Source: Ectopseudomonas khazarica (GTDB taxonomy: Bacteria; Pseudomonadota; Gammaproteobacteria; Pseudomonadales; Pseudomonadaceae). Taken from it: 64,000 bases of DNA. Below the pieces are notes generated by a model that saw only the letters and a list, made by a program, of their open reading frames with translations, was not told where the DNA came from and did not search any database. How positions within the stretch are numbered: position 1 is the stretch's first letter; the number at the start of each line of letters is the position of its first letter. A program made the position numbers and the translations under genes. The stretch lies in the NCBI RefSeq assembly GCF_004521985.1, contig NZ_SBHZ01000017.1, forward strand, positions 1-64,000, in the 5' to 3' direction. Below, in pieces: positions 520-24,120 of this stretch.

Positions 520-560
520 AGGGCGCTGAAACGGTGCGATATCGCTTCCGGCAGCGCCCT
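520..560 (+). promoter_or_regulatory. Leader hairpin before wbpA
   Basis: AGGGCGCTG (520-528) and CAGCGCCCT (552-560) are a perfect 9-bp inverted repeat with a 23-base loop, between the candidate promoter and the wbpA start codon. If transcribed it would form a stable stem in the 5' leader. No T-run follows, so it is not a classical terminator. Confidence 0.45.
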
Positions 561-596
561 AAAACTAGTAGTTCCGTGAGTTTTGGATGGGGTGTG

Positions 597-2883
<2,287 letters not shown>

Positions 2884-3002
2884 CCTGGCTGTCATGTACG
2901 GGTGACCGGGTTTGTGGGTCACCCAGCTTCTAGCTGTCTGCTTTCAGAGCCTGAATCAACGTGTCAATCCCCCTCCCAACAAAATCGAACCTCGGCTCCT
3001 CG

Positions 3003-4853
3003 ATGCGTTCGCCGTCTCGCATCAGGCTGGATGTCCAGGGGTTGCGTGCTGTCGCCGTCCTGGCAGTACTTGTTTATCATGCCAATGCGGCCTGGCTTAA
3101 AGCTGGCTTTGTCGGCGTTGACGTGTTTTTCGTCATATCGGGTTTCATCATCACGGCACTGCTGACTGAGCGTAGTGCCAAGATTGAACTGTTCGCATTT
3201 TATGCGAGCCGCATCAAGCGTATCCTGCCGGCCTATCTGGTCATGTTGGCTATCGTATGCACAGCGTCTGCGATCTTGTTATTGCCTGCAGATTTTTCTT
3301 TGTTTTTCAAGAGCTTGAAGTCATCGGTGCTGTTTGCTAGCAACCGCTACTTCGCCGATTTTGGCAGCTACTTTGCCCCCTCGGCGGATGAGTTGCCCTT
3401 GCTGCATACATGGTCGCTGGCCATCGAGATGCAGTTCTATCTGTTCTTTCCAGTGTTGATTGCCTGCGTACCTGGGCGTCACCGGCTTGCAGTTTTTGCT
3501 GGATTGACTGCGGTGCTGTTTGCCTGGAGCGGTTACCGAGCTTTGTTTGGCGATGTTTCTGGGGCAGTTTATTTTTCATTGTCTGCGAGGGCTCCTGAGT
3601 TTTTGGTCGGGGCTCTGGTCGCGCTTACCCTGCATCAGGAGCTCCCATTACGTTTGGCGAACCTGGTTGGCTTGCTCGGGGCAGTACTACTTGCTTGCAG
3701 TTTCTGGTTGGTACAAAAGGCGCAATTCCCTGGCATCTGGTCGCTGATGCCGTGCTTCGGTACGGCGCTGCTGATCGCGGCCCGTCGTGGTATAGCGAGC
3801 AGCCTGCTGGCTTGTGGCCCGATGGTCTGGCTCGGTGGTATCTCCTACTCCCTGTATTTATGGCATTGGCCGGTTCTGGCGTTCATCCGTTACTACACAG
3901 GTCAATATGACCTGACAGTTTCTTGGCTGCTGGTGTTTCTATTGGCGTCCTTTCTGCTTGCATGGCTCTCGTATCGTTTTGTCGAGCAGCCAGTCCGTGG
4001 TTCTGGGCGTATCTCACTGCATTGGCGCAGCTGGGGTGTTGCAGTGTCGATCCTTGTGCTGCTGGCCGTGGGGGCTCGGTTTGTCAACAAGCACCTAGTG
4101 GACCCACTGCCGTTGGAAATGACGACCTATGCGCCAGATGAAGAGATCTGTCACGGTTCATTGGTCGGGGAGTGCAAGCGTGGGGTCTTGGACGCGCCAA
4201 TCTCGGCACTGGTGATTGGCGATAGCCATGCGGCTCAGCTCAATTTCTTTTTCGATGAGGTGGGGCGTGAGTTGGGGGCAGCGTACCGGCTGATCAGTGC
4301 CAGCAACTGCGTGCCGATACCGGGTTTTGATGTGGAACGGTTGGCCGACTGGGCGAGGCCTGGTTGCAAAGCGCAGATGCAGGTGGTTGCCGAGGAGTTA
4401 CCTCGTATGCACAACGTGGTAATCGCCGGCATGTGGCAGATGCAGGTGCAAAGCCCTGCGTTCGTTACCGCTCTGGAGCGTTTTCTGCGCGACAGTGCTG
4501 AGCAAGGCAAGCGCGTGGTGGTGTTGGCCCAGGTACCGATGTTGGTAGCCAATCCTGTGCGTATGCACCGCTTTGCTGCGGTTGGGATTCCGGTGCAAGT
4601 AGTGGAAAACGATAGCTGGCGAGCGGCCAATATGACCATCAGACAATTGGTCGATAGCGTACCAGGAGCCAGTTTCGTCGATATGTCCGGCTCTGTGTTG
4701 TTCAATGATGCGCCCTACTACAAGGGCGAGCTGATGTATCTGGACAGCCACCACCTCAACCAGCGGGGAGCACGTGCTTATGGCCACTTGGCAATAAGCA
4801 GGTTCAGGCATGTTTTCTCACAGTTACAAGCGGACAAGGGCTATCAGCCATGA
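3003..4853 (+). CDS. wbpC: Acyltransferase-3 / SGNH O-acetyltransferase, WbpC-like
   Basis: Membrane O-acyltransferase expected to acetylate the O-unit. The N-terminal half is an acyltransferase-3 domain with about ten hydrophobic segments, beginning [14 protein letters not shown] and carrying the [13 protein letters not shown] motif; the C-terminal third is a periplasmic SGNH domain (VIGDSHAAQ, and DSHHLNQRG near the end with the Asp-x-x-His pair). At 616 residues it matches P. aeruginosa WbpC (about 629) and occupies the same place between wbpB and wbpD. The start is uncertain: a GTG at 2961 would add 14 residues; neither start has a good ribosome site. The stop overlaps the wbpD start by 4 bases (ATGA). 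Confidence 0.85.
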
Positions 4854-5434
4854 ACCATTATCAGCATATCAGCGCTATCGTCGATGACGGTGCGCAAATC
4901 GGGAAGGGCACACGAATCTGGCACTTCGTGCACGTGTGTGCAGGTGCCAGGATCGGTGCTGGTGTCTCTCTGGGGCAGAACGTGTTCGTGGGGAACAAAG
5001 TGGTCATCGGCGACCACTGCAAGATCCAGAACAACGTGTCGGTCTACGACAACGTCACCCTCGAAGAGGGGGTGTTCTGTGGCCCGAGCATGGTCTTCAC
5101 CAATGTCTACAACCCCCGGTCGCTGATCGAACGCAAGAGTGAGTATCGCGACACACTGGTGCGGAGGGGGGCGAGTCTTGGTGCTAACTGCACCATCGTC
5201 TGTGGTGTCACCATAGGCGAGTATGCCTTTGTCGGTGCTGGCGCTGTGATCAATAAGGATGTGCCAGCGTACGCCTTGATGGTTGGTGTTCCTGCGCGTC
5301 AAATCGGTTGGATGAGTGAGTTCGGCGAGCAGTTGCAGCTTCCCTTGCAGGGTGAAGGGCAGGCGGTGTGCGCGCACAGCGGGGTAAAATACGTGTTGAA
5401 TGGCAAGGTGCTCGCCAAGGAGAGCGGACAATGA
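4850..5434 (+). CDS. wbpD: UDP-GlcNAc3NA N-acetyltransferase WbpD
   Basis: Acetylates the 3-amino group of UDP-2-acetamido-3-amino-2,3-dideoxyglucuronic acid to give UDP-GlcNAc3NAcA. The 194-residue protein is a left-handed beta-helix of hexapeptide repeats ([56 protein letters not shown]). It overlaps wbpC and wbpE by 4 bases on each side, so translation is probably coupled. Length and gene position match P. aeruginosa WbpD. Confidence 0.92.
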
Positions 5435-6522
5435 TCGAGTTCATCGATCTGAAGGCCCAGCAGGCCCTCATCAAAGAGAAGATCGACGCAGGCATCCAGG
5501 CGGTACTTGCTCACGGCCAGTATATTCTGGGGCCTGAAGTGGCTGATCTGGAAGAGAAGCTGGCCGCCTTCGTGGGGGCTAAGTACTGCATAAGTGTCGC
5601 CAATGGCACCGATGCACTGCAGATTGCGCAAATGGCTCTGGGCATCGGTCCGGGCGATGAGGTCATCACCCCTGGCTTCACTTATATAGCCACTGCTGAG
5701 ACAGTTGCCCTGTTAGGTGCCAAGCCTGTGTATGTGGATATTGATCCGCGTACCTACAACCTGGATCCGCAGTTACTCGAAGCAGCGATCACGCCGCGTA
5801 CCAAGGCGATAATCCCGGTTTCTCTGTATGGCCAGTGCGCCGACTTCGATGCGATCAATGCCATTGCGACTCGGCACGGTATCCCGGTAATTGAGGATGC
5901 TGCGCAGAGCTTCGGTGCCACGTACAAGGGCAAGCGCTCCTGCAACCTGACCACCATTGCCTGCACCAGCTTCTTCCCAAGTAAGCCCTTGGGTTGCTAT
6001 GGCGACGGTGGAGCAATCTTCACCAGCGATGACGAGTTGGCCAAGGTAATGCGCCAGATCGCCCGCCATGGTCAGGATCGTCGCTACCACCATGTCCGTG
6101 TAGGTGTGAACAGTCGCCTGGATACCCTGCAAGCGGCCATTCTGCTGCCCAAGCTGGAGATCTTCGAAGCCGAAGTGACGCAGCGTCAGCAGGTTGCCGC
6201 AGGTTACGCGCAACAGCTTGAGCAACAAGGCATTGCTGCGCCCTTTATAGCGGCAGGCAATACCAGTGCTTGGGCTCAATACACCGTACAGGTGGATGCC
6301 CGCGAGAGCGTGCAGGCTCAGCTCAAGGAGGGTGGTATTCCTACCGCCGTGCACTATCCGATTCCGCTCAATCAGCAACCGGCGGTCAAGGACGAACATG
6401 CAAGCCTGCCTGTCGGTGATGCGATCGCACGCAAGGTCATGAGTCTGCCGATGCATCCTTACCTCGGCGAAACCGAACAAAAAGCGATCTGCGCCAAACT
6501 GGCCGCCGCCATCCGCAATTAA
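5431..6522 (+). CDS. wbpE: UDP-GlcNAc3NA transaminase WbpE
   Basis: PLP-dependent aminotransferase that converts the 3-keto sugar made by WbpB into the 3-amino sugar with glutamate. DegT/DnrJ/EryC1/StrS family, 363 residues; the PLP lysine is Lys185 in [14 protein letters not shown], the position reported for P. aeruginosa WbpE. AAGGAGAG at 5416-5423 supports the ATG at 5431, which overlaps the wbpD stop. With wbpA, wbpB and wbpD it completes the route to UDP-GlcNAc3NAcA. Confidence 0.93.
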
Positions 6523-6535
6523 TGGAGTACCCAAC

Positions 6536-7510
6536 ATGAAAGTCCAAGGTTCCAAGATTCTCGTCATCGGCGGTGCCGGTTTCATTGGCAGCTTCGTGGT
6601 TTCCGAGCTGCTCAAGGAGGGCGCCGAACAGGTCGTCATCTACGACAACCTGGCCCGCGGCAAGCTCAGCAACATTGCCGAGCAACTCAAGGATCCGCGT
6701 TGCACCATGTACCCGCACGGTGGTGATATTCGCGAGATCGACCTGCTCAATGACGCCATGAAAGGTATGGATGGGGTGATCCACCTGGCTGCCATGTGGC
6801 TGTTGCACTGCAAGGATTTCCCGCGTACTGCGTTCCACGTGAACATCGAAGGCACCTTCAACGTGCTCGAGGCTTGCGTGAACAACAACATCAAGCGCCT
6901 TGTGTACTCCTCCTCCGCATCGGTTTACGGCGATGCGGTGCAGGTTCCGATGACCGAAGAGCACCCCTTCAACAACCGCAACTTCTACGGCGCTACCAAG
7001 ATCGCTGGCGAGGCCATGTGCCATGCCTACCATGATCGTTTCGGCCTCAGCTACGTCGGCCTGCGCTATATGAACGTCTACGGCCCGCACCAGGACCAGA
7101 CCGCTGCCTACACTGGCGTAATCCCGATCATGCTGAACAAGATCGACGCCAACGAAGGCCCGGTCATCAACGGCGACGGTACCCAGGCTTACGACTTCAT
7201 CTATGTTGAAGACGTCGCTCGCTGCAACGTCCGCGCCCTGGAATCGGAAGTCACCGACCAGTTCTACAACGTCGGTACCGGCGTGCAGACCAGCATCAAG
7301 GAGCTGTGCGACACCATCCTCGACCTCAAGCAGTCCGAACTGAAAGTGCAATACCGTCCTTACAGTGCCGATGATGCCCGCCGCATGGTGCAGAACCGCA
7401 TCGGCTGCCCGAAAAAGGCCACCAATGACCTGGGCTTCACCTACAAGTACGAACTGCGTGAAGGCCTGCAGAAACTGATCGACTGGCGCGCCGAGAATGG
7501 GGCGGAGTGA
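6536..7510 (+). CDS. NAD-dependent nucleotide-sugar epimerase/dehydratase (SDR)
   Basis: Extended short-chain dehydrogenase, 324 residues, cytoplasmic. Visible: NAD-binding GGAGFIGS near residues 12-19, the DNLARGK turn, the substrate-site SSSASVYG and catalytic Tyr-x3-Lys in FYGATKIAGE. The NxYGP motif (NVYGPHQDQ) is typical of UDP-glucose 4-epimerase-like enzymes. The substrate cannot be read from sequence. GGAG lies 8-9 bases before the ATG. It overlaps or abuts the aminotransferase gene, so the two probably act on the same nucleotide sugar. This is the first serotype-specific gene after the wbpA-E block. Confidence 0.8.
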   Translation: MKVQGSKILVIGGAGFIGSFVVSELLKEGAEQVVIYDNLARGKLSNIAEQLKDPRCTMYPHGGDIREIDLLNDAMKGMDGVIHLAAMWLLHCKDFPRTAFHVNIEGTFNVLEACVNNNIKRLVYSSSASVYGDAVQVPMTEEHPFNNRNFYGATKIAGEAMCHAYHDRFGLSYVGLRYMNVYGPHQDQTAAYTGVIPIMLNKIDANEGPVINGDGTQAYDFIYVEDVARCNVRALESEVTDQFYNVGTGVQTSIKELCDTILDLKQSELKVQYRPYSADDARRMVQNRIGCPKKATNDLGFTYKYELREGLQKLIDWRAENGAE

Positions 7511-7515
7511 GTTCG

Positions 7516-8661
7516 ATGGAGAAGCGTAATATCGCCATCTCGCTGCCTAGTACTGGCGAAGAAGAATGGCAGGCCACTCGCGAGCCGCTGATGAGTGGCT
7601 GGCTGACTCAAGGACCGAAGGTTGCAGCGTTCGAGAAAGCGTTCGCCGAGCGTCACCAGGTGCCCCACGCCTTGGCGGTCACCTCCTGCACCACCGGCCT
7701 GCACCTGGCGCTGGCCGGCCTGGGCATTGGCCCGGGTGACGAGGTGATTGTCCCGGCGTTCACCTGGGTCGCCACCGCCAACGTCGTGCTGTACTGTGGT
7801 GCTACCCCGGTATTCATCGACGTCGACCCGCGGACCTTCAACCTCGACCTCGAGCAGGTCAAGGCCAAGGTCACCGACAAGACCCGCGCGGTGATTGCCG
7901 TGCACCTGTTCGGCCGTTGCCTGGATATCGACACCCTGCGCGCCGCGTTGCCGCAGTCGGTGGCCATCGTCGAAGACGCCGCTTGTGCCGCTGGCGCCAG
8001 CTGGAATGGCCGCCCGGCAGGTAGCCTCGGGGATGTGGCCGCGTTTTCGTTCCATCCACGCAAGTCGGTGACCACCGGCGAGGGTGGCATGGTCACCACG
8101 GCCAACGCCGAACTGGCCGAGACCATGAACCAGCTGCGCAACCACGGTGCTTCCCTTTCCGAGGAGCAGCGCCATCACGGCCCACGGCCTTACCTGCTGC
8201 CTGAGTTCAACCTGCTTGGCTTCAACTACCGCATGACCGACCTGCAAGGAGCAGTGGGCCTGGTACAGCTGGCCAAGCTCGATGGGTTCATCGATGAGCG
8301 CGAGCAGTGGGCTCGCTACTACTGTGAGCAACTGGCCGATATCGAATGGCTGCGCCTGCCTTCCAGTCCAGAGGGTGGCCGTCACGGCTGGCAGGCTTTC
8401 GTGATGTACGTCGAACCAGGCAAGGCACCCATGCCGCGTAATCAGATGATGGAGATCCTTCAGGAAAAGGGCATTTCCACGCGTCCTGGTACTCACGCGG
8501 TGCATATGCTGGCTTACTATCGTGAGCGTTTCGGCCTCGCCCCGGACGATTTTCCGGCGGCGCGCGACTGCAACGACCACAGCATGGCGATTCCGCTGCA
8601 CAACCGCATGGTCGCTGAGGATTATGCGTACGTCGTCGAGGCGATTCGCCAGCTTCGTTGA
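7516..8661 (+). CDS. DegT/DnrJ/EryC1/StrS sugar aminotransferase
   Basis: PLP-dependent nucleotide-sugar aminotransferase, 381 residues from this start. PLP lysine is Lys183 in FHPRKSVTTGEGGM; VEDAACAAGA is the PLP-ring motif. It is more like the ArnB/perosamine-synthase/PglE branch than like WbpE, so a C4-keto sugar is the likely substrate (inference). The ATG at 7516 is preferred because GGAG at 7504-7507 is 8 bases before it; a GTG at 7507 overlapping the previous stop would add 3 residues. WbpM in this locus makes a 4-keto-6-deoxy sugar that could feed it, and two PglD-like acetyltransferases could acetylate its product. Confidence 0.85.
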   Translation: MEKRNIAISLPSTGEEEWQATREPLMSGWLTQGPKVAAFEKAFAERHQVPHALAVTSCTTGLHLALAGLGIGPGDEVIVPAFTWVATANVVLYCGATPVFIDVDPRTFNLDLEQVKAKVTDKTRAVIAVHLFGRCLDIDTLRAALPQSVAIVEDAACAAGASWNGRPAGSLGDVAAFSFHPRKSVTTGEGGMVTTANAELAETMNQLRNHGASLSEEQRHHGPRPYLLPEFNLLGFNYRMTDLQGAVGLVQLAKLDGFIDEREQWARYYCEQLADIEWLRLPSSPEGGRHGWQAFVMYVEPGKAPMPRNQMMEILQEKGISTRPGTHAVHMLAYYRERFGLAPDDFPAARDCNDHSMAIPLHNRMVAEDYAYVVEAIRQLR

Positions 8662-8710
8662 GTATCACGGCAGAACACACCTCCAGTATTCATGACTGGG
8701 GGCGCATCCG

Positions 8711-8759
8711 AGGTGATGGGGCGTGCGCATAGTGCTCGCGGCCCATCACCTTTCGATTT
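8711..8759 (+). terminator. Hairpin followed by T-run between aminotransferase and asnB genes
   Basis: AGGTGATGGG (8711-8720) and CCCATCACCT (8742-8751) pair perfectly over 10 bp, and the loop can pair further. TTCGATTTT follows. It looks like an intrinsic, possibly leaky, terminator inside the O-antigen locus, in the only sizeable gap (115 bases) between 6.5 and 29 kb. Confidence 0.5.
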
Positions 8760-8776
8760 TAGGAGCAGCAAAGCGC

Positions 8777-10660
8777 ATGTGTGGTATTACCGGCCTCATT
8801 CATCTGGACAGCAACCCGGTATCGCCTGTAGTTCTACAGCGCATGACCGATGGCATTGCCCATCGCGGCCCGGATGGCGAAGGCCACTGGATCGAAGGTA
8901 ACGTCGGCCTTGGGCATCGTCGTCTGGCGATCATTGACCTTTCGCCTGCAGGTCACCAACCCATGGCGTCGGTCTCCCAGCGTTACGTAATGGTTTACAA
9001 CGGCGAGGTCTACAACTTTCGTGAGCTGCGCACCGAACTGGAGGCTCTGGGCTACCAGTTTCGCTCGCGGACTGACAGTGAGGTCGTGCTCAACGCCCTG
9101 ATTGCTTGGGGGCCGAAAGCGCTCGAGCGTTTCAATGGCATGTTTGGCCTGGGTCTGTGGGATCGCCAGGAGCAGACCTTGCTGCTGGCTCGTGACCGTT
9201 ATGGCATCAAGCCGCTTTATTATGCACGCCAGGGTAATACCCTGGCGTTTGGCTCCGAGCAGAAGGCGATTCTGGCCCTCCCGGAGTTTAAGCGCAGTCT
9301 CGACAAGGAAGCGTTGCTGGAATACTTCACCTTCCAGAACATCTTCACCGACAAGACACTGCTCAACGACATCAAGATGTTCCCGGCTGGGCACTATGCC
9401 GTGCTGGACATGAAGCGCAAGTCGCCAGCACTGCAACTTATCGAGTACTGGGACTACGATTTCCGTGAGCCGGAGCACAAGGCCAGCGACGAAGAGTACC
9501 GGGAGGAGCTGGACCGCTTGTTTCGACAGGCCGTCAATCGCCAACTGGTGACGGATGTGGAGCTGGGCAGCTACCTGAGCGGCGGCATGGACTCAGGCTC
9601 GATCACCGCAATCGCGTCGCAGTCGTTGCCCTACATGAAGACCTTCACCTGCGGTTTCGACCTGAACTCTGCCTCAGGCATCGAGATGGGGTACGACGAG
9701 CGCAGCAAGGCCGAGTACATGTCCTACCATTTCAAGACCGAGCATTACGAAATGGTCTTGAAGGCTGGCGACATGGAGCGGGTCTTGCCCAAACTGGCCT
9801 GGCACCTAGAAGAGCCGCGGGTGGGACAGAGCTACCCGAATTACTATGCCGCACAACTGGCTTCCAAATTCGTCAAGGTGGTGATGTCGGGCGCCGGCGG
9901 CGATGAGTTGTTCGGCGGCTACCCATGGCGCTACTACCGCGCGGTGGTCAATGATGATTTTGAGCATTACATTGACAAGTATTACCAGTTCTGGCAGCGC
10001 TTGATCCCAAATAGCCAGCTCAAGAATGTTTTTGCGCCTATCTGGGATGACGTGAAGCATGTGTGGACGCGCGATATCTTCCGCGATGTGTTCAAGCACC
10101 ATGCCGACAATTTGTACACGCCAGAGGATTACATCAATCACTCGTTGTACTTCGAGGCGAAGACATTTCTTCATGGCCTGTTGGTGGTAGAGGACAAACT
10201 GAGCATGGCGCATGGTCTCGAAAGCCGGGTGCCGTTTCTCGACAATGACTTGGTCGATTTCGCCATGCGCTGTCCGGTACACCTCAAGCTGAATAACCTT
10301 GCCGATGTGGTTCGTCTTAACGAGAACGAGGCCGGTGGTAAGTCTGACAAGTACTTCCAGCGCACCAAGGATGGCAAGCAAATTTTGCGTGATGTCATGG
10401 GTAAATATATTCCTCAGGATATTGCCAAGGCAGAGAAACAAGGTTTCTCTGCGCCAGATGCCAGCTGGTTCAAGGGCGAAAGTATGGACTTCGTGAAGAA
10501 GGCTGTGCAAAACGAAAACTCGCCAATGTATGCGGTTCTGGATAGGGGGTGTATTAATAGTTTGATCGGCGAACATTTGGCTGGTGCCAGTAACAAGCGT
10601 CTTCTGATCTGGTCGGTGCTGAATTTCAATACTTGGCTGGGACAGCAGAATGTCAATTGA
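8777..10660 (+). CDS. AsnB-like glutamine-dependent amidotransferase (first copy)
   Basis: Asparagine-synthase family protein of 627 residues. The start is fixed by the glutaminase nucleophile Cys2 (MCGITGLIHLD), with AGGAG at 8761-8765 upstream. N-terminal class II glutaminase domain (HRGPDGEGHW, NGEVYNFREL) and C-terminal ATP-pyrophosphatase domain with SGGMDSGS at residues 268-275. In P. aeruginosa O6 the homologous WbpS amidates a uronic acid of the O-unit; here the diacetamido-uronic acid made by WbpA-E is a likely target (inference). A normal asparagine synthetase role is less likely in this setting. The next gene starts 11 bases inside its 3' end. Confidence 0.85.
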   Translation: MCGITGLIHLDSNPVSPVVLQRMTDGIAHRGPDGEGHWIEGNVGLGHRRLAIIDLSPAGHQPMASVSQRYVMVYNGEVYNFRELRTELEALGYQFRSRTDSEVVLNALIAWGPKALERFNGMFGLGLWDRQEQTLLLARDRYGIKPLYYARQGNTLAFGSEQKAILALPEFKRSLDKEALLEYFTFQNIFTDKTLLNDIKMFPAGHYAVLDMKRKSPALQLIEYWDYDFREPEHKASDEEYREELDRLFRQAVNRQLVTDVELGSYLSGGMDSGSITAIASQSLPYMKTFTCGFDLNSASGIEMGYDERSKAEYMSYHFKTEHYEMVLKAGDMERVLPKLAWHLEEPRVGQSYPNYYAAQLASKFVKVVMSGAGGDELFGGYPWRYYRAVVNDDFEHYIDKYYQFWQRLIPNSQLKNVFAPIWDDVKHVWTRDIFRDVFKHHADNLYTPEDYINHSLYFEAKTFLHGLLVVEDKLSMAHGLESRVPFLDNDLVDFAMRCPVHLKLNNLADVVRLNENEAGGKSDKYFQRTKDGKQILRDVMGKYIPQDIAKAEKQGFSAPDASWFKGESMDFVKKAVQNENSPMYAVLDRGCINSLIGEHLAGASNKRLLIWSVLNFNTWLGQQNVN

Positions 10661-11684
10661 GATAATTGCTAACGAACACGCTGATGATACATTGCAGATA
10701 TTCCTGAAGCGGTGTGATCGATCGTTCGTATATGCAACACCCGCATTCATGGCGATGATCGCAGCGCATCTGCGAGGCCGGGCGTACTGGTTAGTAATGC
10801 GCCGTTCTGGGGGAGTCGTAGGCCTTCTTCCTTTTATGGTGAAGGAGGGTGCGTTGGGTGCCGTTTATAACTCGCTTGCTTATTACGGCAGCAACGGAGG
10901 TGTGATTCAACTCACCTACGATAAGGACGATAAGAGGCAGTTGATCGAGTATTTCTATGAGGCGGCAGAGAAGGGGGGGGCTGTGACGGCAACTCTTATT
11001 TCCAACCCGCTCGAGGAGTGCGTCACCTATGAGCAGTTCTCAAAATACGACCTGCGTGATGAGCGCATCGGTCAAATAACTTGTCTGCCAGACAGTGAGA
11101 GTGGTGACTCGTTGATGAAGTTGTTTGATGACCCCCGCCCGCGCAATATCAGAAAAGCCCTTCGCGAAGGCGTAATTGTTACTGCTGAGACGGATAAGGG
11201 GGTTGTTGACTTTTTGTACGACACTCATCGGAAGAACATGGCGGCAATTGGTGGTTTGCCGAAACGAGAAAGTTTCTTTAGGGATATTTCTTGTTACATG
11301 GCGAATGATCAGTGGCAGATCTATGTGGGTCGGATTGGGCCGCAAGCTGTTGCGGCTTTATTGGTTTTTTACAACAACCAGACCGTAGAGTATTTTACCC
11401 CGGTAATTGTCGAGGAATATAGAGGCACGCAAGCGCTTGCCCTCGTAGTGTATGAGGCAATGCTCGACGCCGTGAGCAAGGGCTTTAAATACTGGAACTG
11501 GGGTGGTACCTGGCTTTCTCAGGGGGGGGTGTACGATTTCAAGAAAAAATGGGGTACCACGGATCATCCCTATTATTACTACACCCGAGTCTTCGATCCT
11601 AAGGTACGCAAGGCGCCGCGTGAGCAACTGCTCTCTGAGTACGAGGGTTTCTTTGTACTGCCATTCTCAGCTTTGGAGGTTTGA
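10650..11684 (+). CDS. FemAB-like (GNAT-superfamily) transferase
   Basis: 344 residues with no membrane segment. The middle and C-terminal parts resemble the FemAB / BioF2-like acetyltransferase domain: FLYDTHRKNMAAIGGLP, a GNAT-like core ending in YWNWGGTW, and YDFKKKWGT near the end, the typical FemAB-type finish. Family members transfer an amino acid from aminoacyl-tRNA, or an acyl group, to an amine. In an O-antigen locus this would fit acylation of an amino sugar with an amino acid or unusual acyl group (inference). It is translationally coupled to the asnB-like gene before it and to the acetyltransferase after it. Confidence 0.7.
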   Translation: MSIEIIANEHADDTLQIFLKRCDRSFVYATPAFMAMIAAHLRGRAYWLVMRRSGGVVGLLPFMVKEGALGAVYNSLAYYGSNGGVIQLTYDKDDKRQLIEYFYEAAEKGGAVTATLISNPLEECVTYEQFSKYDLRDERIGQITCLPDSESGDSLMKLFDDPRPRNIRKALREGVIVTAETDKGVVDFLYDTHRKNMAAIGGLPKRESFFRDISCYMANDQWQIYVGRIGPQAVAALLVFYNNQTVEYFTPVIVEEYRGTQALALVVYEAMLDAVSKGFKYWNWGGTWLSQGGVYDFKKKWGTTDHPYYYYTRVFDPKVRKAPREQLLSEYEGFFVLPFSALEV

Positions 11685-12352
11685 TGAGTAGTAACCGAGG
11701 TCTGATCATCGTTGGTACTGGGCTTTTTGCCGAAGTTGCAGGTGCCTATTTTTCAGAGTATACCGACTATCAGGTTACTGGCTACGCATGCCACCGCAAG
11801 TATATTGTCGGTAAGGAAATCTATGGATTGCCTTTGAGCGCCATCGAAGATCTCCTTGATTCGTATCCTCCAGGATGTTTCGATGTGTTTGTCGCTATTG
11901 GTTACGCGCAAATGAATCGTATGCGGCAAAAGGTGTATGAAGAAATTCGCGCGAAGGGCTATACGTGTGCGACGTTTGTTCATCCCAACGTAAAGATTTG
12001 GCCTTCAACCCTGCTGGGGGATAACGTGTTCATCTTCGAAGATAACACGATACAGCCGTTTACCAAGATAGGCTCCAATACGATGCTGTGGAGTGGGAAC
12101 CACATTGGTCACCATAGCAAGGTCGGCAATCACTGTTTCATCGCTTCTCACGTTGTCATTTCGGGTTCATGCAGCGTAGGTGATCGCGTTTTCATTGGTG
12201 TGAACGCTACCTTGAGAGACAGCATAGCAGTTGCCGATGAGACGCTGGTCGGTGCAGGAGCGCTGATCATGAAAGACACGAAGCCGCAGGAAGTTTATGT
12301 AGTCGAGCGTACACGTCCGCATAAACTCAATTCGGAAGAGGTTGGTTTTTGA
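11684..12352 (+). CDS. PglD/NeuD-like sugar acyltransferase
   Basis: 222 residues. An N-terminal Rossmann-like half (GLIIVGTGLFAEVAGAYF) and a C-terminal left-handed beta-helix (LLGDNVFIFEDNTIQPF, VGNHCFIASHVVISGSCSVG) match the NeuD/PglD family that acetylates amino sugars or sialic-acid-like sugars. ATG at 11684 with GGAGG about 5 bases upstream; it overlaps both neighbours by one base. Substrate unknown; the 4-amino sugar expected from the aminotransferase at 7516 is one candidate. Confidence 0.8.
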   Translation: MSSNRGLIIVGTGLFAEVAGAYFSEYTDYQVTGYACHRKYIVGKEIYGLPLSAIEDLLDSYPPGCFDVFVAIGYAQMNRMRQKVYEEIRAKGYTCATFVHPNVKIWPSTLLGDNVFIFEDNTIQPFTKIGSNTMLWSGNHIGHHSKVGNHCFIASHVVISGSCSVGDRVFIGVNATLRDSIAVADETLVGAGALIMKDTKPQEVYVVERTRPHKLNSEEVGF

Positions 12353-12981
12353 TGAAAGTCGATACGCAGTTAAAAAAAATCGAGTCGATGTACTCTGAGA
12401 ACTTAAAAAAGACAGGTGTCGACTCTCGGTCTGTGGGCTGGAATACCGAAGCTTGTCAGAAACTTAGATTTAGCAAGCTGGCCGCGGTATTAGACTGCTC
12501 TGGGCCTTTTTCGGTCAATGATTTGGGTTGTGGCTATGGGGCGCTGCTTGAATTTTTGCAGCAGGACCTCGGAGCCAAAGTTTCTAAATATTATGGCTAT
12601 GACATTAGCCAGGATATGCTGACGTTGGCGCGTGCGCGGTTGGCGAGTGCAGAGTGCGATGTTGTTGAGTTGTTGCAGGCGCCCAGCCTGGTAACTCGTG
12701 CGGATTATGCATTCGTTTCCGGTACTTTTAATGTGAAGTTTGATGCTGAACCGGAGGTCTGGAAGGAATATATTTCTTCTTGTTTGAAAAATCTGGATGA
12801 GTTTAGTGATAGGGGTTTCGCCTTCAATCTACTGACGTCCTATGTGGATTGGGAAGAGCCGCACCTCTTCTACGGTAATCCTGGTTACTGGTTTGATTAT
12901 TGCAAAAAGAACTTTTCCAAAAGGGTTTCCCTCCTTCACGATTATGATCTGTGGGAATGGACCATCGTGGTGAAAAAGTGA
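12352..12981 (+). CDS. SAM-dependent methyltransferase (class I)
   Basis: 209 residues. The SAM-binding motif I is DLGCGYG at residues 57-63, followed by GYDISQDMLTLARARL (motif around the acidic ribose-binding residue). Likely methylates a sugar hydroxyl, an amino-acid substituent or the end of the chain. It sits in a run of one-base-overlapping genes after the FemAB- and PglD-like transferases, so a joint role in decorating one residue is reasonable (inference). Base composition is visibly more AT-rich than in wbpA-E. Confidence 0.75.
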   Translation: MKVDTQLKKIESMYSENLKKTGVDSRSVGWNTEACQKLRFSKLAAVLDCSGPFSVNDLGCGYGALLEFLQQDLGAKVSKYYGYDISQDMLTLARARLASAECDVVELLQAPSLVTRADYAFVSGTFNVKFDAEPEVWKEYISSCLKNLDEFSDRGFAFNLLTSYVDWEEPHLFYGNPGYWFDYCKKNFSKRVSLLHDYDLWEWTIVVKK

Positions 12982-13904
12982 TGTGGGACAAGATTTTTTT
13001 CTTCCACACGCCATCTGGGTTGCCTGCCACTGCGGTTTCCCATGCTCAACTGCCCACGGTCCTGTGCTTTCAAGACTTTGTCAGGGTTTTTTTTGCTGTA
13101 CGTGATGACCGCCAGTACTCCAGCATTTATTCGATCGATCTGGGGCTGGAGGGGAGGGAGGTCAAAGTACTTAGCGAATCACCGGTCTTGTGCCTTGAGC
13201 CCGGTGCTTTGGGCGGGTTCGACGAGCATGGTGTGTTTCCAGCATCGATCATTTCGATCGAGGGTCGATACCATCTCTATTATATTGGCTGGAACAAAGG
13301 TGCGACCCCTCCGCTTTTTTATGCGGCAATTGGTTTGGCGGTCAGCGAGGACGGACTGAATTTCAAGCGTACCTCGGTAGCCCCAATCATGAGCCGTAGT
13401 GAATATGATCCCTGTCTCGTCACTTCACCTCATGTATACAAGGACGGTGAGTTGTACAGGATGACTTATGTCTCTGGGGTAAAGTGGACCCGTGAAGTAC
13501 ACGGGTTGCAATCCCATTATCATATCAAGCATGCGACCTCGTTGGATGGTGTGAGTTGGCAACGTGAAGGCAGAGTCGCCATTGACTTTGCACCTGGCGA
13601 AACCAATATTGCTCGCTCTGCTGTGATGAAAAACGGCGAAGGATGCTACGAAATGTGGTTCTCGTTCGTGGGGCCAGAGAGTGGAAAGTATCGCATGGGG
13701 TATGCATCCTCCACTGACGGTTGGCAGTGGGTGCGTAATGATCGTAAAGCGGGTATAGATGCGGACTGCGAAGAGTGCAGCGATATGATTTGTTATCCCT
13801 GTGTCTTCGATTTCAAGGGTGAGCGATATATGCTTTTCAATGGCGATGGATTCGGTCGCAACGGTTTTGGCTTGGCTGTTCTTGATCGGCAGAGAGTTGT
13901 TTGA
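12981..13904 (+). CDS. Five-bladed beta-propeller, glycoside-hydrolase-like protein
   Basis: 307 residues with no signal peptide. Repeated blade-like motifs (HGVFPASIISIEGRYHLYYI, TSPHVYKDGELYRMTYVSG, IARSAVMKNGEGCYEMWFSF, CYPCVFDFKGERYMLFNGDG) resemble the GH43/GH32/GH130-type propeller. Family members hydrolyse or phosphorolyse glycosides, but a cytoplasmic propeller inside an O-antigen operon could also be a transferase or a structural partner. I do not recognise a specific function. The ATG at 12981 shares one base with the upstream stop. Confidence 0.6.
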   Translation: MWDKIFFFHTPSGLPATAVSHAQLPTVLCFQDFVRVFFAVRDDRQYSSIYSIDLGLEGREVKVLSESPVLCLEPGALGGFDEHGVFPASIISIEGRYHLYYIGWNKGATPPLFYAAIGLAVSEDGLNFKRTSVAPIMSRSEYDPCLVTSPHVYKDGELYRMTYVSGVKWTREVHGLQSHYHIKHATSLDGVSWQREGRVAIDFAPGETNIARSAVMKNGEGCYEMWFSFVGPESGKYRMGYASSTDGWQWVRNDRKAGIDADCEECSDMICYPCVFDFKGERYMLFNGDGFGRNGFGLAVLDRQRVV

Positions 13905-15193
13905 TGAAGACCAGAGTTTATACGTTATTTTGTTGGGCTGCCTATCCGTTATTCTTCATCATTGCAATGCTTATAGCACTCTGTGCTCGCCTGTTCTGTC
14001 GGTCTGTACTGGATAGTCCGCGTTTGGTCTGGGGCGAAGCACCGATAATTAATAACTCTTATTGGGCGCGGGCCATGCGTGCGGCGGGCTGTAAGTCGCT
14101 GACATTCACCGATGGCTATTCCTACACGATCAATAAGCGGGAGGACTATGATCGAGTGGTTCAGGATCACTATGGACCTATTCCGGTTTTCCTGAAGTAC
14201 TACCTTGCTTTTTTTGAAAGCCTTTTCAGGTTCGATGTTTTTTTTATATCGTTTAATGGCTTCTTTCTTGGGAAGACTCCATTTTGGCGCATGGAAGCCC
14301 TGCTGTTGAAGTTGGCGCGGAAGAAGGTGGTAGTTCTTCCATTTGGACTGGACGCGTTTGTTTATAATAGGGTGAAGTCTACCTCTATGCTGCAGGGACT
14401 ATTGATGTCGGTCCCTGTTCCGTCACGGCAACAGCGGCGTATCGCTGCGCGCGTTGACTACTGGTGTGAGCATGCTGATGTGGTACTGCTTGGCTTTTTG
14501 GGTCCAGACGGGTTTGGTAGGTGGGACGTCATCATGCCGAATTTCCTGTTCATTGATTATGACGAGTGGGCTCAGTCGACCAGAGCTAGTGATGCAGATG
14601 GTGTCAGTGATGTGGTTTATATCGCACATGCGCCAAATCATCGTGGTTTCAAAGGGAGTGAATTTGTAATTGACGCAGTTGCCCAGCTAAAACATGAGGG
14701 TTTGAAAGTAGAGCTGGTTCTGGTCGAGGGTAAGCAAAATTCGGAAGTTAAGAGGATCTTCAAGGAAGATGTCGATATCCTGGTTGAGCAGCTTATAGCG
14801 GTTGGTCATGGGCTCAACGGTTTAGAGGGAATGGCGTCTGGTTTACCGGTCATCAGTAATCTCGAAGACGAAAACTATGTCGTGCCTCTTCGTCGATGGT
14901 CATATTTTTCTGAGTGTCCCATCGTGTCGGGGTCTCCAGAGAATCTTGTGGAGATTTTACGTAAGCTCGTTACTAGGCCTGGCTTACGCAGGGAGCTGGG
15001 GGCGGCCGGTAGAGCATATGTCGAGAAATACTATGGCTACGATTCGGCGCAATATCTGTTCGGTGAGATAATTCATTATCTTTACGGTCGTCGCGAACGC
15101 TTGATTGATTTGTATCATCCGCTTTTGAGCGATTACCCCAAGCGTGCCGCCAAGGTTATTAATCCTCTGAAAAACGGGCGGTTGCCTGATTGA
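13904..15193 (+). CDS. Glycosyltransferase (GT-B, GT4-like) with N-terminal membrane anchor
   Basis: 429 residues. A hydrophobic N-terminal segment (LFCWAAYPLFFIIAMLIALC) suggests a membrane anchor. The C-terminal half is a GT-B nucleotide-sugar domain: IAHAPNHRGFKGSEFVIDA, then LVEGKQNSEVKRIF and a late GLEGMASGLPVISNLED motif. It shares these features with the proteins at 16645-17862 and 18746-19903, so the three are related. Presumably adds one sugar to the lipid-linked O-unit on the cytoplasmic face. Confidence 0.78.
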   Translation: MKTRVYTLFCWAAYPLFFIIAMLIALCARLFCRSVLDSPRLVWGEAPIINNSYWARAMRAAGCKSLTFTDGYSYTINKREDYDRVVQDHYGPIPVFLKYYLAFFESLFRFDVFFISFNGFFLGKTPFWRMEALLLKLARKKVVVLPFGLDAFVYNRVKSTSMLQGLLMSVPVPSRQQRRIAARVDYWCEHADVVLLGFLGPDGFGRWDVIMPNFLFIDYDEWAQSTRASDADGVSDVVYIAHAPNHRGFKGSEFVIDAVAQLKHEGLKVELVLVEGKQNSEVKRIFKEDVDILVEQLIAVGHGLNGLEGMASGLPVISNLEDENYVVPLRRWSYFSECPIVSGSPENLVEILRKLVTRPGLRRELGAAGRAYVEKYYGYDSAQYLFGEIIHYLYGRRERLIDLYHPLLSDYPKRAAKVINPLKNGRLPD

Positions 15194-16623
15194 TGCTTTT
15201 ACGTAAATTGGCCCGTGATAGCGTCATTTATGGCGGCGGCGACTTCCTGCTGAAACTTCTCGCGTTCTTCACTTTTCCCTTGCTAGCTTCAGCTTTGTCG
15301 GCCGAGGGGTTTGGGGTTATGGAGCTGGGACTGACCATTGCGACGCTTGGCGCTGTTTTTGTTCGTTGTGGTTTGAATAATGCGGTACAGCGCTACTATT
15401 GGGATGCCGGTGTTTCTGAGGTTGAGCGACCGGTATTGGTCTCGACTGGTTTCTGGTTGACGTTCGGTATCGGTGTGGTATGCGGGGTATGTTCATTCTT
15501 CACCGTACCGTTGATTTTCAAAGCTAGCAGTGGCGGAGCGGAGCAGCTGGCTCCAATGGGCGTTCTGGCTATCGCCGCTCTTCTGCCGCTTCTCCAATGG
15601 AGCCAATACTTACAGGATGTCCTAAGGCTCCATTTTGCGCCTTGGAAGTTCTTGGCATACACCTTCAGTAGTCGTGCACTTGGGGCTCTGGTTGCGCTCT
15701 TCCTAGTTTTATATTTTGGTGCGGGCGTTGAGGGCGTGTTACTGGCTCAGGCATCAGTACTGCTGTTGGCATTGCCGCTTGGGATCTGGTTTGTCAAGAA
15801 GGACTTCGTTGTAAAAGTTGATAGGCCTTTGGCAGGACGGCTTTTAGCTTTCGGTGCCCCTTTCATTTTCACGGAGGTTGCCTACTGGTTGTTGGCATCA
15901 ATTGATCGATGGGTGTTGGCGGCAATGGCCGGAGTCTCCGAGGTTGGTATCTACTCAGTAGCATTCAGGTTCTCTACCTTGGCAGTCTTCGTCGCCACTG
16001 CATTTGGTATGGCCTGGAGTCCTTATGCGGTAAAAATCAGGGCGGATCATCCCCAGAGCTATAAGCACGTCTATGCTGAGGTGCTCTTGATTCTCTTGGT
16101 TGTGATGTTGTGTGTGGCCGGATTCATCGCTTTGTTTGCGGGCGAATTTATTGGGCAGATCATGTCACCCGACTATGCTGCCGCAGCTATTCCATTGACA
16201 GTACTATGTTTCACTGCAGTATTGCAGGCGAGCCAGCAAGTCACAGCCATCGGTATCTCTCTGGCAAATAGAACCAAGATTTTTGCTGGTCTTGTGTGGG
16301 TGGCGGCTATTCTGAATTTGGTCTTGAATTTTTGGTTGATTCCTCAGGCCGGTGCTGCTGGGGCTGCGATAGCTACATTAATATCCTATGTGTTTCTATC
16401 GGGTGCCTTCCTTTTCTTTACCCAGCGTCTCTATCCTTTGCCAATCAGCTGGGCACGCTTACTCTGGTTGTGCTTTCTAGGTGCGGTAATTCTGTTTTCA
16501 AGTATTCACTGGTCGTCACAAGAATTTGATTTGTCTACGTCAGCAGTGAAATTGTGCATTGCCTTGGTGTGCCTAGTGTTCGCCTTGCTGTCGCTTAATT
16601 TTAAAATTTTTCGTTCGCTTTAA
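15193..16623 (+). CDS. wzx: Wzx-type polysaccharide flippase
   Basis: 476 residues with about 12-14 hydrophobic segments, starting LARDSVIYGGGDFLLKLLAF, typical of the MOP/PST exporter family. Flips undecaprenyl-diphosphate-linked O-units across the inner membrane. The locus has a second MOP-type protein at 26706-28187, so which one flips the O-unit cannot be decided from sequence. The ATG at 15193 overlaps the preceding stop. Confidence 0.8.
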   Translation: MLLRKLARDSVIYGGGDFLLKLLAFFTFPLLASALSAEGFGVMELGLTIATLGAVFVRCGLNNAVQRYYWDAGVSEVERPVLVSTGFWLTFGIGVVCGVCSFFTVPLIFKASSGGAEQLAPMGVLAIAALLPLLQWSQYLQDVLRLHFAPWKFLAYTFSSRALGALVALFLVLYFGAGVEGVLLAQASVLLLALPLGIWFVKKDFVVKVDRPLAGRLLAFGAPFIFTEVAYWLLASIDRWVLAAMAGVSEVGIYSVAFRFSTLAVFVATAFGMAWSPYAVKIRADHPQSYKHVYAEVLLILLVVMLCVAGFIALFAGEFIGQIMSPDYAAAAIPLTVLCFTAVLQASQQVTAIGISLANRTKIFAGLVWVAAILNLVLNFWLIPQAGAAGAAIATLISYVFLSGAFLFFTQRLYPLPISWARLLWLCFLGAVILFSSIHWSSQEFDLSTSAVKLCIALVCLVFALLSLNFKIFRSL

Positions 16624-18746: not shown

Positions 18747-19903
18747 TGAAAAGCTACAAAGTCTTGCATGCCCCCAGTTCGGTCGGGGGTAACCCTCAAG
18801 TGCTCAGTCGCGCACTGCAGGCGCTGGGGGTGGATAGCCGCTCGCTTGTGGTGTCCCAGAACTATCTAGCCTACAAGGCGGACAAGGTGCTGCAGCGCCC
18901 TGGTGAAAGCCTGGTAATGCGTGAGTTCAAGCGCATCTGGACCATTCTGTTCTACCTGCCACGTTTCGATGTCATTCATTACAACGCTGGGACTACATTG
19001 GCCAGCGCCTATGCATTTTCGCCACGACCTGGTCGGCGCGCGCACGATCTGGTGCGCTACTGCTATGCCGCGTATCTGCGCGCGCTGCAGCGCTTCGAAC
19101 TCGCGTATGTTCGGCGGTTGGGCAAGAAGATTTTCGTCACCTACCAGGGCGATGATGCGCGCCAGGGCGATTACAGTCTGGAACATTTTCCAATCAATAT
19201 CGCAAGTCAGGTCGACCAGGGCTATTACTGCGCGGCATCCGACGCTTTCAAGCGCCGCAGCATTAAGATGCTGTCCTCGGTGGCCAGCCAGCTCTACTCG
19301 GTGAATCCGGACTTGATGCACGTACTTCCGGCCAGCACGCGTTTTACGCCTTACTCCCATGTCTCCCTTGACGATTGGAAGCCTCTTTACAATCAATGCG
19401 AGAGTCGCCCGTTGCGCATTGTGCACGCGCCAAGCAATCGCAAGGTCAAGGGTTCCGAGTTGATCATTCGGGCACTGAATGCCTTGCGCGAACAAGGTTT
19501 CGAGTTCGAGCTCCTGCTGGTGGAGGGCATGAGCAATGCCGAGGCGCGAAAGGTCTACGAGTCCGCCGACGTGCTGGTGGACCAACTTTTCGCTGGCTGG
19601 TACGGCGGTTTGGCTGTGGAGCTCATGGCTCTCGGAAAACCGGTGTTGGTGTATATCCGTGATTGCGATTTGGACTTTATTCCTGAGCAGATGAAAATGG
19701 ATTTGCCCTTTCTACGGATCACTCCTCACACGGTGGAGCAAGCGCTACGTGACCTGTTGGTGATGCCACGCCAGGAGTTGTTGGAGCTGGGGCGACGTAG
19801 CAGGGCGTTCGTCGAACGTTGGCACGATCCGTTAGATATTGCTCGCAGTATTCAACGTGACTATGAGCGTGCAATGCAAATTGCGCGAGAGGATATGGAA
19901 TAG
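18746..19903 (+). CDS. Glycosyltransferase (GT-B, GT4-like)
   Basis: 385 residues without a clear membrane segment. N-terminal KVLHAPSSVGGNPQVLSRAL is the acceptor-domain start; the donor domain contains IVHAPSNRKVKGSELIIRA and DVLVDQLFAGWYGGLAVELM, shared with the proteins at 13904 and 16645. So this is the third member of a local transferase family, with a different N-terminal half. The stop overlaps the GTG of the next gene by one base. Confidence 0.8.
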   Translation: MKSYKVLHAPSSVGGNPQVLSRALQALGVDSRSLVVSQNYLAYKADKVLQRPGESLVMREFKRIWTILFYLPRFDVIHYNAGTTLASAYAFSPRPGRRAHDLVRYCYAAYLRALQRFELAYVRRLGKKIFVTYQGDDARQGDYSLEHFPINIASQVDQGYYCAASDAFKRRSIKMLSSVASQLYSVNPDLMHVLPASTRFTPYSHVSLDDWKPLYNQCESRPLRIVHAPSNRKVKGSELIIRALNALREQGFEFELLLVEGMSNAEARKVYESADVLVDQLFAGWYGGLAVELMALGKPVLVYIRDCDLDFIPEQMKMDLPFLRITPHTVEQALRDLLVMPRQELLELGRRSRAFVERWHDPLDIARSIQRDYERAMQIAREDME

Positions 19904-23010: not shown

Positions 23011-24120
23011 ATGATGGATGTCGATTGCCTGGTGGTGGGCGCTGGAGTTATTGGTTTGGCGTGTGCTGCGCAAATGGCCCGGGCCGGGAGCAGCGTCATA
23101 CTGGTCGAGCAGGAGTGCCGGATTGGTGAGCACACCTCAAGCCGTAATTCCGAGGTTATACATGCTGGGATCTATTACCCGCCTGACTCGCTGAAAGCAC
23201 GGCTGTGCGTTGAGGGGCGCGAGTTGTTGTACCGCTGGTGTCAAATGCATGGTGTGAACCATCGGCGTATTGGCAAGCTTCTGGTGGCTGTCACAGATGC
23301 AGAGGTCCCCGCATTGGAGGCGATACAGGCTAATGCCCGTCAGTCGGGTGTGGAAAGTCTCGAAGTTGTTTCGCAGAAGCGTTTGTACGAATTGGAGCCT
23401 GCTGTTGTCGGTGTGGCGGGGCTGCTTTCCCCGCAGACCGGCATCATCGATAGCCATGCCTACATGGAGTCCTTGCTCGCCGAGGCGCAACGCTATGGTG
23501 CTGATCTGGCGCTTGATACGCGTGTTGATCATGTTTTTCTCACTGCGCAAGGTTGGCGTGTAGAAGGGCTTAGTTGTGGTGAGCGCTTCTGTATTCATGC
23601 CCGTTCTGTGATAAATGCATCAGGTTTGTTTGCTAGTCAGTTTGCTGAGAAGGTCGAGGGGCTTGATGCAGCGTATGTGCCTGCTACGTATTGGTGCCAA
23701 GGCAGGTATTTCGGGTATGCTGGGCGGCCACCCTTCAAGCATTTGGTCTATCCGATGCCGGAGGCCAACACTGCCGGGTTGGGTATCCACGCGACGTTAG
23801 ATCTGGGCGGGCAGGTGCGCTTTGGTCCGGATGTAGCCTGGACTGATGCGCTGGATTATCAAGTAGATGAGTCTCTTCGCGAATCTTTTGCGCGGGCTAT
23901 TTTCAGATACTTCCCTTCGCTTAACACCGCTAGGTTGATAGCTGGCTACAGCGGGATAAGGCCAAAGCTTTCTGCTCCAGGTCACCCGGCAGCAGATTTC
24001 AGTATTCAAGGTCCGCAAGTTCATGGGTTGCCAGGGTTGGTCAATCTCTTCGGCATTGAATCTCCAGGGCTGACTGCCAGTCTCGCGATTGCCCGATACG
24101 TTTCTCTGCTTCTTGATTGA
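23011..24120 (+). CDS. FAD-dependent oxidoreductase, LhgO/DAO-like
   Basis: 369 residues. FAD-binding motif VVGAGVIGLACAAQMARAG at the N-terminus, then HTSSRNSEVIHAGIYYP, a signature of the L-2-hydroxyglutarate oxidase (LhgO) branch of the DAO family, and a C-terminal GIESPGLTASLAIA. Expected to oxidise a 2-hydroxy acid or an amine with FAD. Such an enzyme is unusual in an O-antigen locus; it may make a substituent (keto or hydroxy acid) or be a passenger. Two ATG codons (23011, 23014) are possible. Confidence 0.75.
   Translation: MMDVDCLVVGAGVIGLACAAQMARAGSSVILVEQECRIGEHTSSRNSEVIHAGIYYPPDSLKARLCVEGRELLYRWCQMHGVNHRRIGKLLVAVTDAEVPALEAIQANARQSGVESLEVVSQKRLYELEPAVVGVAGLLSPQTGIIDSHAYMESLLAEAQRYGADLALDTRVDHVFLTAQGWRVEGLSCGERFCIHARSVINASGLFASQFAEKVEGLDAAYVPATYWCQGRYFGYAGRPPFKHLVYPMPEANTAGLGIHATLDLGGQVRFGPDVAWTDALDYQVDESLRESFARAIFRYFPSLNTARLIAGYSGIRPKLSAPGHPAADFSIQGPQVHGLPGLVNLFGIESPGLTASLAIARYVSLLLD

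Follow-up and report, generated by a model that had tools for sequence, protein, structure and literature searches.

Amino sugars bearing an N-acylated amino acid are known from several O-antigens, including those of Shigella dysenteriae 7, Escherichia coli O114, Vibrio cholerae O43 and Aeromonas salmonicida; in the passages of two sources that treat them, the amino acid is N-acetylated, a uronamide is sometimes found nearby, the substituted residues are 6-deoxy sugars (Qui4N, Qui3N), and no enzymes are named that install the aminoacyl groups (PMC10609480; PMC3210612). Comparable chemistry occurs in antibiotic pathways. Orf11 of BD-12 and the pair Sbb17/Sba18 combine a tandem-GNAT fold with a catalytic lysine and act on an amino sugar acceptor, the latter two being described as aminoacyl-tRNA-dependent peptide synthases with structures solved with the amino sugar intermediate streptothrisamine. 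The pathway of gougerotin, a secreted nucleoside antibiotic that we liken to the present case by pathway logic, is outlined in part of PMC12835213 as joining a 4-amino-uronic core, an amidated carboxyl group, N-methylation and amino-acid condensation. Here we describe a run of six genes (7516-13904, forward strand) in the O-antigen locus (534-35886) of Ectopseudomonas khazarica. All coordinates refer to the first 64,000 nucleotides of contig NZ_SBHZ01000017.1, hereafter the window, which is the start of a contig in a 5.2 Mb genome.

Together with an adjacent short-chain dehydrogenase/reductase (SDR) gene and the wbpABDE-type genes upstream, the six genes are predicted to build one nucleotide-activated, aminoacylated triamino-hexuronamide, a reading to which we give moderate confidence. 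Such a product would share with the above O-antigens an amino sugar carrying an acylated amino acid, and would differ from them in its triamino-uronamide core, its methylation and its use of a Fem-type enzyme. The terminal sugar of the Bordetella bronchiseptica and B. parapertussis O-chain, which we take to be a 2,3,4-triamino-galacturonamide whose N-acyl and methyl groups vary, offers a further point of comparison. The middle genes of the Bordetella locus are predicted to modify this terminal sugar, and the sections of PMC3849452 that cover it report that the wbmZ-wbmO block, which contains wbmS by the gene list, tracks serotypes O1/O2.

The six-gene run is a real mobile cassette, more than a chance association. 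It encodes, in the order and with the families given by the initial annotation, a DegT sugar aminotransferase of C4 type (7516-8661; Pfam DegT_DnrJ_EryC1, 2.1e-115), an AsnB-type glutamine amidotransferase (8777-10660; asn_synth_AEB, 459.5 bits, cut-off 267.1), a FemAB/FemX-like transferase (10650-11684; Pfam Acetyltransf_6, 3.6e-11, and FemAB, 1.2e-07), a PglD/NeuD-type hexapeptide N-acyltransferase (11684-12352; TIGR03570 (NeuD/PglB/VioB), 171.3 bits, cut-off 160.8), an S-adenosylmethionine-dependent methyltransferase (12352-12981; Pfam Methyltransf_12, 7.7e-09) and a five-bladed propeller (12981-13904). Pfam and NCBIfam searches assigned no glycosyltransferase family to any of the six, again as annotated. 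The overlaps of 1-11 bases described there hold from AsnB to the propeller (11, 1, 1 and 1 bases), whereas DegT stands apart by a 115-base gap.

A scan of one genome per species (genome_contigs; 84,980 species) with the window FemAB-like protein led to five loci, L110 to L114. Two of them, L111 and L112, both from Bacteroidota, contain all six genes in the order of the window at identities of 43-65% (DegT 62-65%, AsnB 48%, FemAB 43-44%, PglD 44-46%, methyltransferase 49-53%, propeller 43-52%), with junctions whose gaps or overlaps do not exceed 8 bases and, in L111, one extra methyltransferase gene between DegT and AsnB. Upstream of both modules lies an SDR orthologue (71-75%; the next best SDR in those genomes reaches 34-35%). 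The other loci hold partial sets: L110 (Nitrospirae) has DegT (61%), AsnB (68%), a methyltransferase, FemAB (46%) and a formyltransferase; L113 (Lachnospiraceae) has AsnB (57%), FemAB (38%), formyltransferases and a DegT (40%); and L114 (Bacteroidetes) has a different DegT (34%), an SDR (31%), FemAB (34%), PglD (48%) and a propeller (30%), with no AsnB or methyltransferase match. The gene right after FemAB encodes PglD in three of the five loci and a formyltransferase in the other two (L110, L113). Given the full sets in L111 and L112 and the partial sets elsewhere, we interpret the run as a mobile cassette with a replaceable end, made of two exchangeable parts, one for the sugar and its amide (SDR, DegT, AsnB) and one for its decoration (FemAB, PglD, methyltransferase, propeller). 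The single assembly line for a modified amino sugar that the initial annotation envisaged thus stands insofar as the six genes travel together between phyla, and needs enlarging by the SDR gene (6536-7510) and wbpABDE.

Within the genus, a grouping taken in all counts from the database used, the FemAB-like protein was found in one of 249 genomes, that of the window itself. At the level of the class, 81 of 369 genomes match it at an E-value of 1e-3 (own genome included), matches that we regard as superfamily-level because the best of them outside the own genome is only 30% identical. Plasmid searches returned a single weak match to the FemAB protein and, for a 3.3 kb DNA query, only short pieces from two acetyltransferase genes. 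No description of this gene set was found among the literature matches listed, as judged by title and the start of the abstract.

Genes of the Bordetella type accompany the module in two of its other settings. Directly after the propeller, L111 encodes a WbmS relative (13210-13953; Pfam WbmS-like, 8.1e-57; PDB 3hft, polysaccharide deacetylase, 1.9e-40), and weaker WbmS-like pieces (30-38%) follow AsnB in L113 (6280-6863); no WbmS relative was found in the window. The Bordetella likeness may serve as a lead to the product, not as proof of it. In L112 the six-gene module is followed (13150-15668) by a WbpG-like gene, recognized by eye and without a Pfam match, a class-I glutamine amidotransferase gene and a HisF-like gene, which possibly form an amidine-forming set.

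The decoration half centres on the FemAB-like protein. An AlphaFold model, computed for six sequences (predicted local distance difference test, pLDDT, 89.4; predicted template modelling score, pTM, 0.88), matches FemX (6snr) with a Z-score of 28.6 and a root-mean-square deviation of 3.1 over 310 residues, and also FemA, and all 11 fold matches with Z above 25 are Fem-type aminoacyl transferases. Among these, Sbb17 and Sba18 reach Z 25.9-26.2; MprF-type domains follow at Z 18-20 and acyl-coenzyme A (acyl-CoA) tandem GNATs at Z 14-16. Sequence identity to Orf11, Sbb17 and Sba18 is about 15%, and these enzymes belong to antibiotic pathways and not to surface polysaccharide synthesis. K298, invariant in all six sequences aligned, corresponds to residue 305 of 1ne9 (FemXWv Lys305), the lysine whose catalytic role in FemX is treated in a passage of PMC12945691. 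The model and this residue argue for aminoacyl-tRNA-dependent aminoacylation of an amino sugar as the predicted activity. Membership in the XrtA/PEP-CTERM FemAB family (TIGR03019) was rejected, the score being 74.5 bits against a cut-off of 260.35. The best PDB relatives of the neighbouring PglD include perosamine N-acetyltransferase, PglD-type enzymes and VioB, and at least 95% of 38 sequences share its H143. A PglD or formyltransferase gene next to FemAB in all five loci is what would be expected if the free amine of a newly added aminoacyl group were capped. The methyltransferase has no solved relative at an E-value of 0.01, and whether it would methylate N or O is a guess.

The sugar half begins with four enzyme families found together at 534-6522, with wbp names that we assign by presumed analogy with Pseudomonas aeruginosa O5: a WbpA-like UDP-sugar dehydrogenase (534-1916) and a WbpB-like oxidoreductase (1849-2883), predicted to carry out the first precursor steps, followed by a WbpD-like N-acetyltransferase (4850-5434) and a WbpE-like aminotransferase (5431-6522), predicted parts of the route to UDP-2,3-diacetamido-2,3-dideoxy-glucuronic acid (UDP-GlcNAc3NAcA), all on the forward strand and assigned by Pfam and NCBIfam matches. 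The locus opens with a wbpABCDE-like gene order that is, we assume, that of O5; unlike in O5, the wbp genes then continue into an SDR-DegT-AsnB extension. A 7.4 kb DNA search among 115 relatives gave many short matches and one long one, in G790, a member of the same order but another family. Its locus (L155) contains wbpB-wbpD-wbpE-SDR-DegT-AsnB contiguously in the gene order of the window (55%, 75%, 47%, 79%, 71% and 76% identity, respectively), with a formyltransferase gene two genes beyond AsnB and no FemAB or PglD match in a 40 kb stretch. This contiguity without FemAB ties SDR, DegT and AsnB to the diacetamido-uronic acid pathway. In L110 a fused wbpB/wbpD-like gene and wbpE lie upstream of DegT-AsnB, and wbpD-like genes (51-57%) occur in all five FemAB genomes, on the contig of the module in two of them (G766, G769).

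The SDR (6536-7510, forward strand) has best PDB relatives that are mostly 4-epimerases and carries the motif SSSASVYG...YGATK, without what we take to be the acid pair of dehydratases; a role as 4,6-dehydratase or decarboxylase was rejected for want of a motif of the presumed STDE or SEVYG type. The best PDB relatives of DegT are perosamine synthase and ArnB, which we take to be C4 aminotransferases, and its identity to the WbpE of the same locus is 33%. AsnB has the N-terminal cysteine (MCGITG) and the ATP loop (SGGMDS) of its family. Its start is the ATG at 8777, directly before this cysteine; the GTG open reading frame listed at 8723 is a longer frame. DegT adjoins AsnB in L110, L112 and L155 and is one gene apart from it in L111. 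From the linkage in L155 and L110, the co-occurrence of wbpD and the relatives of SDR and DegT, we infer that SDR-DegT-AsnB extends the wbpABDE route, adding first a 4-amine and then a C6 amide.

The pathway we propose is drawn from co-inheritance, families, folds and the conserved lysine; the substrates, the order of steps, the amino acid, the acyl group and the part played by the propeller are predictions. WbpA/B/D/E would supply UDP-GlcNAc3NAcA, the SDR would open C4 by oxidation, perhaps with epimerization, DegT would place an amine there, and AsnB would convert the C6 carboxylate to an amide. The FemAB-like enzyme would then transfer an amino acid from aminoacyl-tRNA onto the 4-amine, PglD, aided by the propeller, would acylate the free amine of the added amino acid, and the methyltransferase would methylate the capped aminoacyl part. 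The result would be a nucleotide-activated 2,3-diacetamido-4-(N-acyl, methyl-aminoacyl)amino-2,3,4-trideoxy-hexuronamide, a substrate for the adjoining glycosyltransferase ahead of export by Wzx. This retains in outline the sugar with amino acid, amide and methyl group suggested by the initial annotation, with C6 of the uronic acid a likelier place for the amide than the amino acid, since AsnB accompanies the sugar genes in L155, where FemAB is missing, and was not found in L114, where FemAB sits with another DegT.

Several observations weigh against this scheme. It is weakest in explaining how a 4-keto substrate could arise from the SDR; the protein resembles a 4-epimerase, an enzyme that would not usually leave a 4-keto compound as its net product. 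Matches to wbpB in the FemAB genomes are weak and partial in four (25-35%; 26% in G767) and lacking in G768, and in the flanks of L111 and L112 none of wbpB, wbpD and wbpE has a full-length match, a wbpD-like piece of 44 residues in L111 being the one trace; the precursor in the two Bacteroidota genomes (G767, G768) may therefore differ. The nearest solved relatives of PglD act directly on 4-amino sugars, so that PglD, not FemAB, might take the 4-amine. With FemAB and PglD lacking in L155, the formyltransferase there presumably acts directly. The clusters of the window (33886-35886) and of L155 and L156 include WbpM-like genes.

Some of these points suit a division of the genes between two sugars, in which DegT and PglD, fed by WbpM, would make an N-acylated 4-amino-4,6-dideoxy sugar of bacillosamine or perosamine type, SDR and AsnB would make a GalNAc(3NAc)A amide, and FemAB, the methyltransferase and the propeller would modify one of the two. 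DegT is closest to perosamine synthase and PglD to perosamine N-acetyltransferase, WbpM-like genes precede the SDR by about 7 kb in L155 and recur in L156, and passages of PMC10609480 and PMC3210612 describe O-antigens that pair uronamides with N-acylated 4-amino-6-deoxy sugars. The adjacency of DegT to AsnB speaks against such a division, as do the retention of wbpBDE-SDR-DegT-AsnB without PglD in L155 and the lack of a WbpM match in the stretches of L110-L112. WbpM relatives are on other contigs in G767 and G768, and a 4,6-dehydratase was on that ground rejected as a dedicated partner of the cassette, although the two-sugar account would assign it one; in G766 a WbpM-like gene is on the contig of the module, about 50 kb away. 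On balance we think two separate sugars rather unlikely.

We judge it improbable that FemAB is an acyl-CoA or other non-tRNA N-acyltransferase, which would make the decoration two simple acyl groups with no amino acid. Its best Pfam match is Acetyltransf_6, acyl-CoA-binding tandem GNATs align with its model, and part of PMC12835213 ascribes the gougerotin condensation to CoA-type enzymes, but every fold match above Z 25 is a Fem-type aminoacyl transferase and the FemX lysine is retained throughout. A random accumulation of modification genes through recombination at the O-antigen locus, with each gene acting on a different residue, would account for the presence of FemAB in a single genome of the genus and for the drop in GC content from 58% (SDR) and 63% (DegT) to 46-51% (FemAB through Wzx), with the step inside AsnB (57.8% up to 9976, 49.1% thereafter); the identical six-gene order in two Bacteroidota opposes it so strongly that we consider it barely credible.

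The propeller links the cassette to a wider set of loci. The protein has no Pfam family at 0.001; its NCBIfam-type matches (beta-1,2-mannobiose phosphorylase, 4.8e-13; beta-fructosidase, 4.2e-06) are far under their cut-offs, and by profile it matches 1,2-beta-oligomannan phosphorylase (7.7e-18). Its model (pLDDT 81.9) resembles BT_0996 (Z 27.2) and 1,2-beta-oligomannan phosphorylase (Z 26.6), which gives it the five-bladed fold of GH32/43/117/130. Among 48 sequences, judged from alignment columns and not superposed active sites, no column is acidic throughout: D81 is found in 36 of the 48, and the most conserved acidic position (46 of 48) falls in a gap of the window protein. A glycosidase role as the default for what the initial annotation called a glycosidase-fold protein was rejected on these grounds, and the protein is a widespread conserved partner of PglD. 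Phage carriage of propeller genes was likewise rejected, with no match in 50,697 phage records.

Within the genus, 27 of 398 genomes encode a propeller; for the class the figure is 20 of 369, and both counts include the own genome. We opened 47 other loci: 26 from the genus, 14 from the class (representing 13 of the 19 non-own genomes, the six weakest matches, E 3.2e-14 to 1.1e-4, being left out), three selected through FemAB and four from the 32 matching plasmid records. PglD is encoded in 42 of the 47, in 37 within 300 bases, and for the genus in all 26, in 25 within 300 bases; the methyltransferase is encoded in 18. Exactly one of WbqC (31 loci), GNAT7 (8) or FemAB (3) is present in 42 of the 47, and never two, with the proviso that L111, L112 and L114 entered through FemAB and owe their FemAB counts to that selection. 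Of the five loci with none of these genes, three are contigs of at most 5.6 kb and two (L053, L059) are long enough.

GNAT7 is a distant homologue of FemAB (hhalign probability 97.8%, 281 columns) and occurs with FdtA in seven of its eight loci, a setting we take to be of Fuc3N/Qui3N type. WbqC has no homology to FemAB detectable by hhalign (probability 0.1) and is often accompanied by a WecE-type aminotransferase. In the genus, 21 of the 27 genomes with a propeller encode WbqC, against 83 of the 371 without one (Fisher p 8e-9); leaving out the own genome, whose WbqC is on another contig, gives 20 of 26 (p 2e-8). Ranked by closeness to the query WbqC, 13 of the first 14 genomes also encode a propeller, the exception being G634; taking the query from a propeller locus favours this figure. 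Three aminotransferase settings thus use PglD, the propeller and one interchangeable transferase, and since only one of WbqC, GNAT7 and FemAB occurs per locus, WbqC is predicted to do the job of FemAB. It is called functionally uncharacterized in a passage of PMC5532660, which links it by citation to the S. dysenteriae 7 O-antigen cluster, and the excerpts of PMC10609480 and PMC3210612 place an N-acetylglycyl group on Qui4N beside a uronamide in that O-antigen. A role of WbqC as its glycyl transferase would fit.

From these loci we tentatively propose, as a possible generalization, an exchangeable toolkit in which a FemAB-type enzyme or the unrelated WbqC would aminoacylate a 3- or 4-amino surface sugar, a PglD-propeller pair would cap it, and a methyltransferase or PhyH-type oxygenase would be optional. 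WbqC (PF08889) would then be a new aminoacyl transferase family, and the propeller a glycosidase fold recruited as an acyltransferase partner that performs no hydrolysis. Two observations count against so general a scheme. Tandem propeller genes lie beside WbqC in L054 (8872-10775), L055 (1572-3491) and L141 (11021-12957), loci with no PglD match, so PglD is not needed everywhere; in L141 (R. leguminosarum) the tandem propellers are followed by genes for a GNAT acetyltransferase and a methyltransferase. Nor is WbqC always found with the PglD-propeller pair, because the gene table of the EPS273 locus of P. stutzeri, in the part of PMC5532660 that presents it, lists WbqC and a WecE-type DegT without a PglD-like acetyltransferase. 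DNA searches of E. coli genomes with the L061 WbqC gene and with a stretch of L063, aimed at WbqC and FemAB-like proteins, gave no match.

Two further arrangements of these genes were observed. In G014 (L084, 5507-17537), genes for a WecE-type DegT, propeller, PglD, methyltransferase, family 2 glycosyltransferase and WbqC lie between wbpB and wbpD, the place of the wbpC-like gene in the window. In L085-L087, L099, L101, L103, L104 and L107 a GtrA-type membrane gene follows the PglD-propeller pair, with a family 2 glycosyltransferase gene near, which suggests a Gtr-type side-chain modification.

The window locus reads wbpA, wbpB, a wbpC-like acyltransferase gene, wbpD, wbpE, SDR, the six genes, a glycosyltransferase-like gene (13904-15193, forward strand; weak family match below cut-off) and wzx (15193-16623, forward strand), followed by more glycosyltransferase and sugar genes, a second AsnB, a second Wzx-like gene, SDR/epimerase genes and WbpL- and WbpM-like genes. 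The 1-base overlaps run on from the propeller into the glycosyltransferase-like gene and wzx, so 13904 is not a natural boundary. A likely recombination seam lies inside AsnB, at about 9977-10300. The second AsnB (19903-21786) is only 30% identical to the first, and the second Wzx-like gene is at 26589-28187; two uronamides and two flippases are perhaps combined in this single locus. An enzyme dependent on flavin adenine dinucleotide (23011-24120) resembles L-2-hydroxyglutarate oxidase (216.6 bits, below the cut-off of 299), and a 45% relative of it adjoins wbpE in L110 (2545-3672). It may recycle 2-hydroxyglutarate, presumably a side product of WbpB-type enzymes.

Side groups of the aminoacyl type are regarded as immune determinants. 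According to passages of PMC10609480 and PMC3210612, amino acids decorate the amino sugars of several O-antigens, and the cassette, if read correctly, points to candidate enzymes for their installation. What is new here is a candidate Fem-type enzyme set for N-acyl-aminoacyl amino sugars, a kind of sugar already known. Functions are also predicted for the WbqC and propeller families, neither of which has one assigned in the records examined; in the four plasmid records opened, the propeller is annotated as a hypothetical protein or as a glycosylase. The set is small and testable, comprising one Fem-type enzyme, one capping enzyme, one methyltransferase and one propeller.

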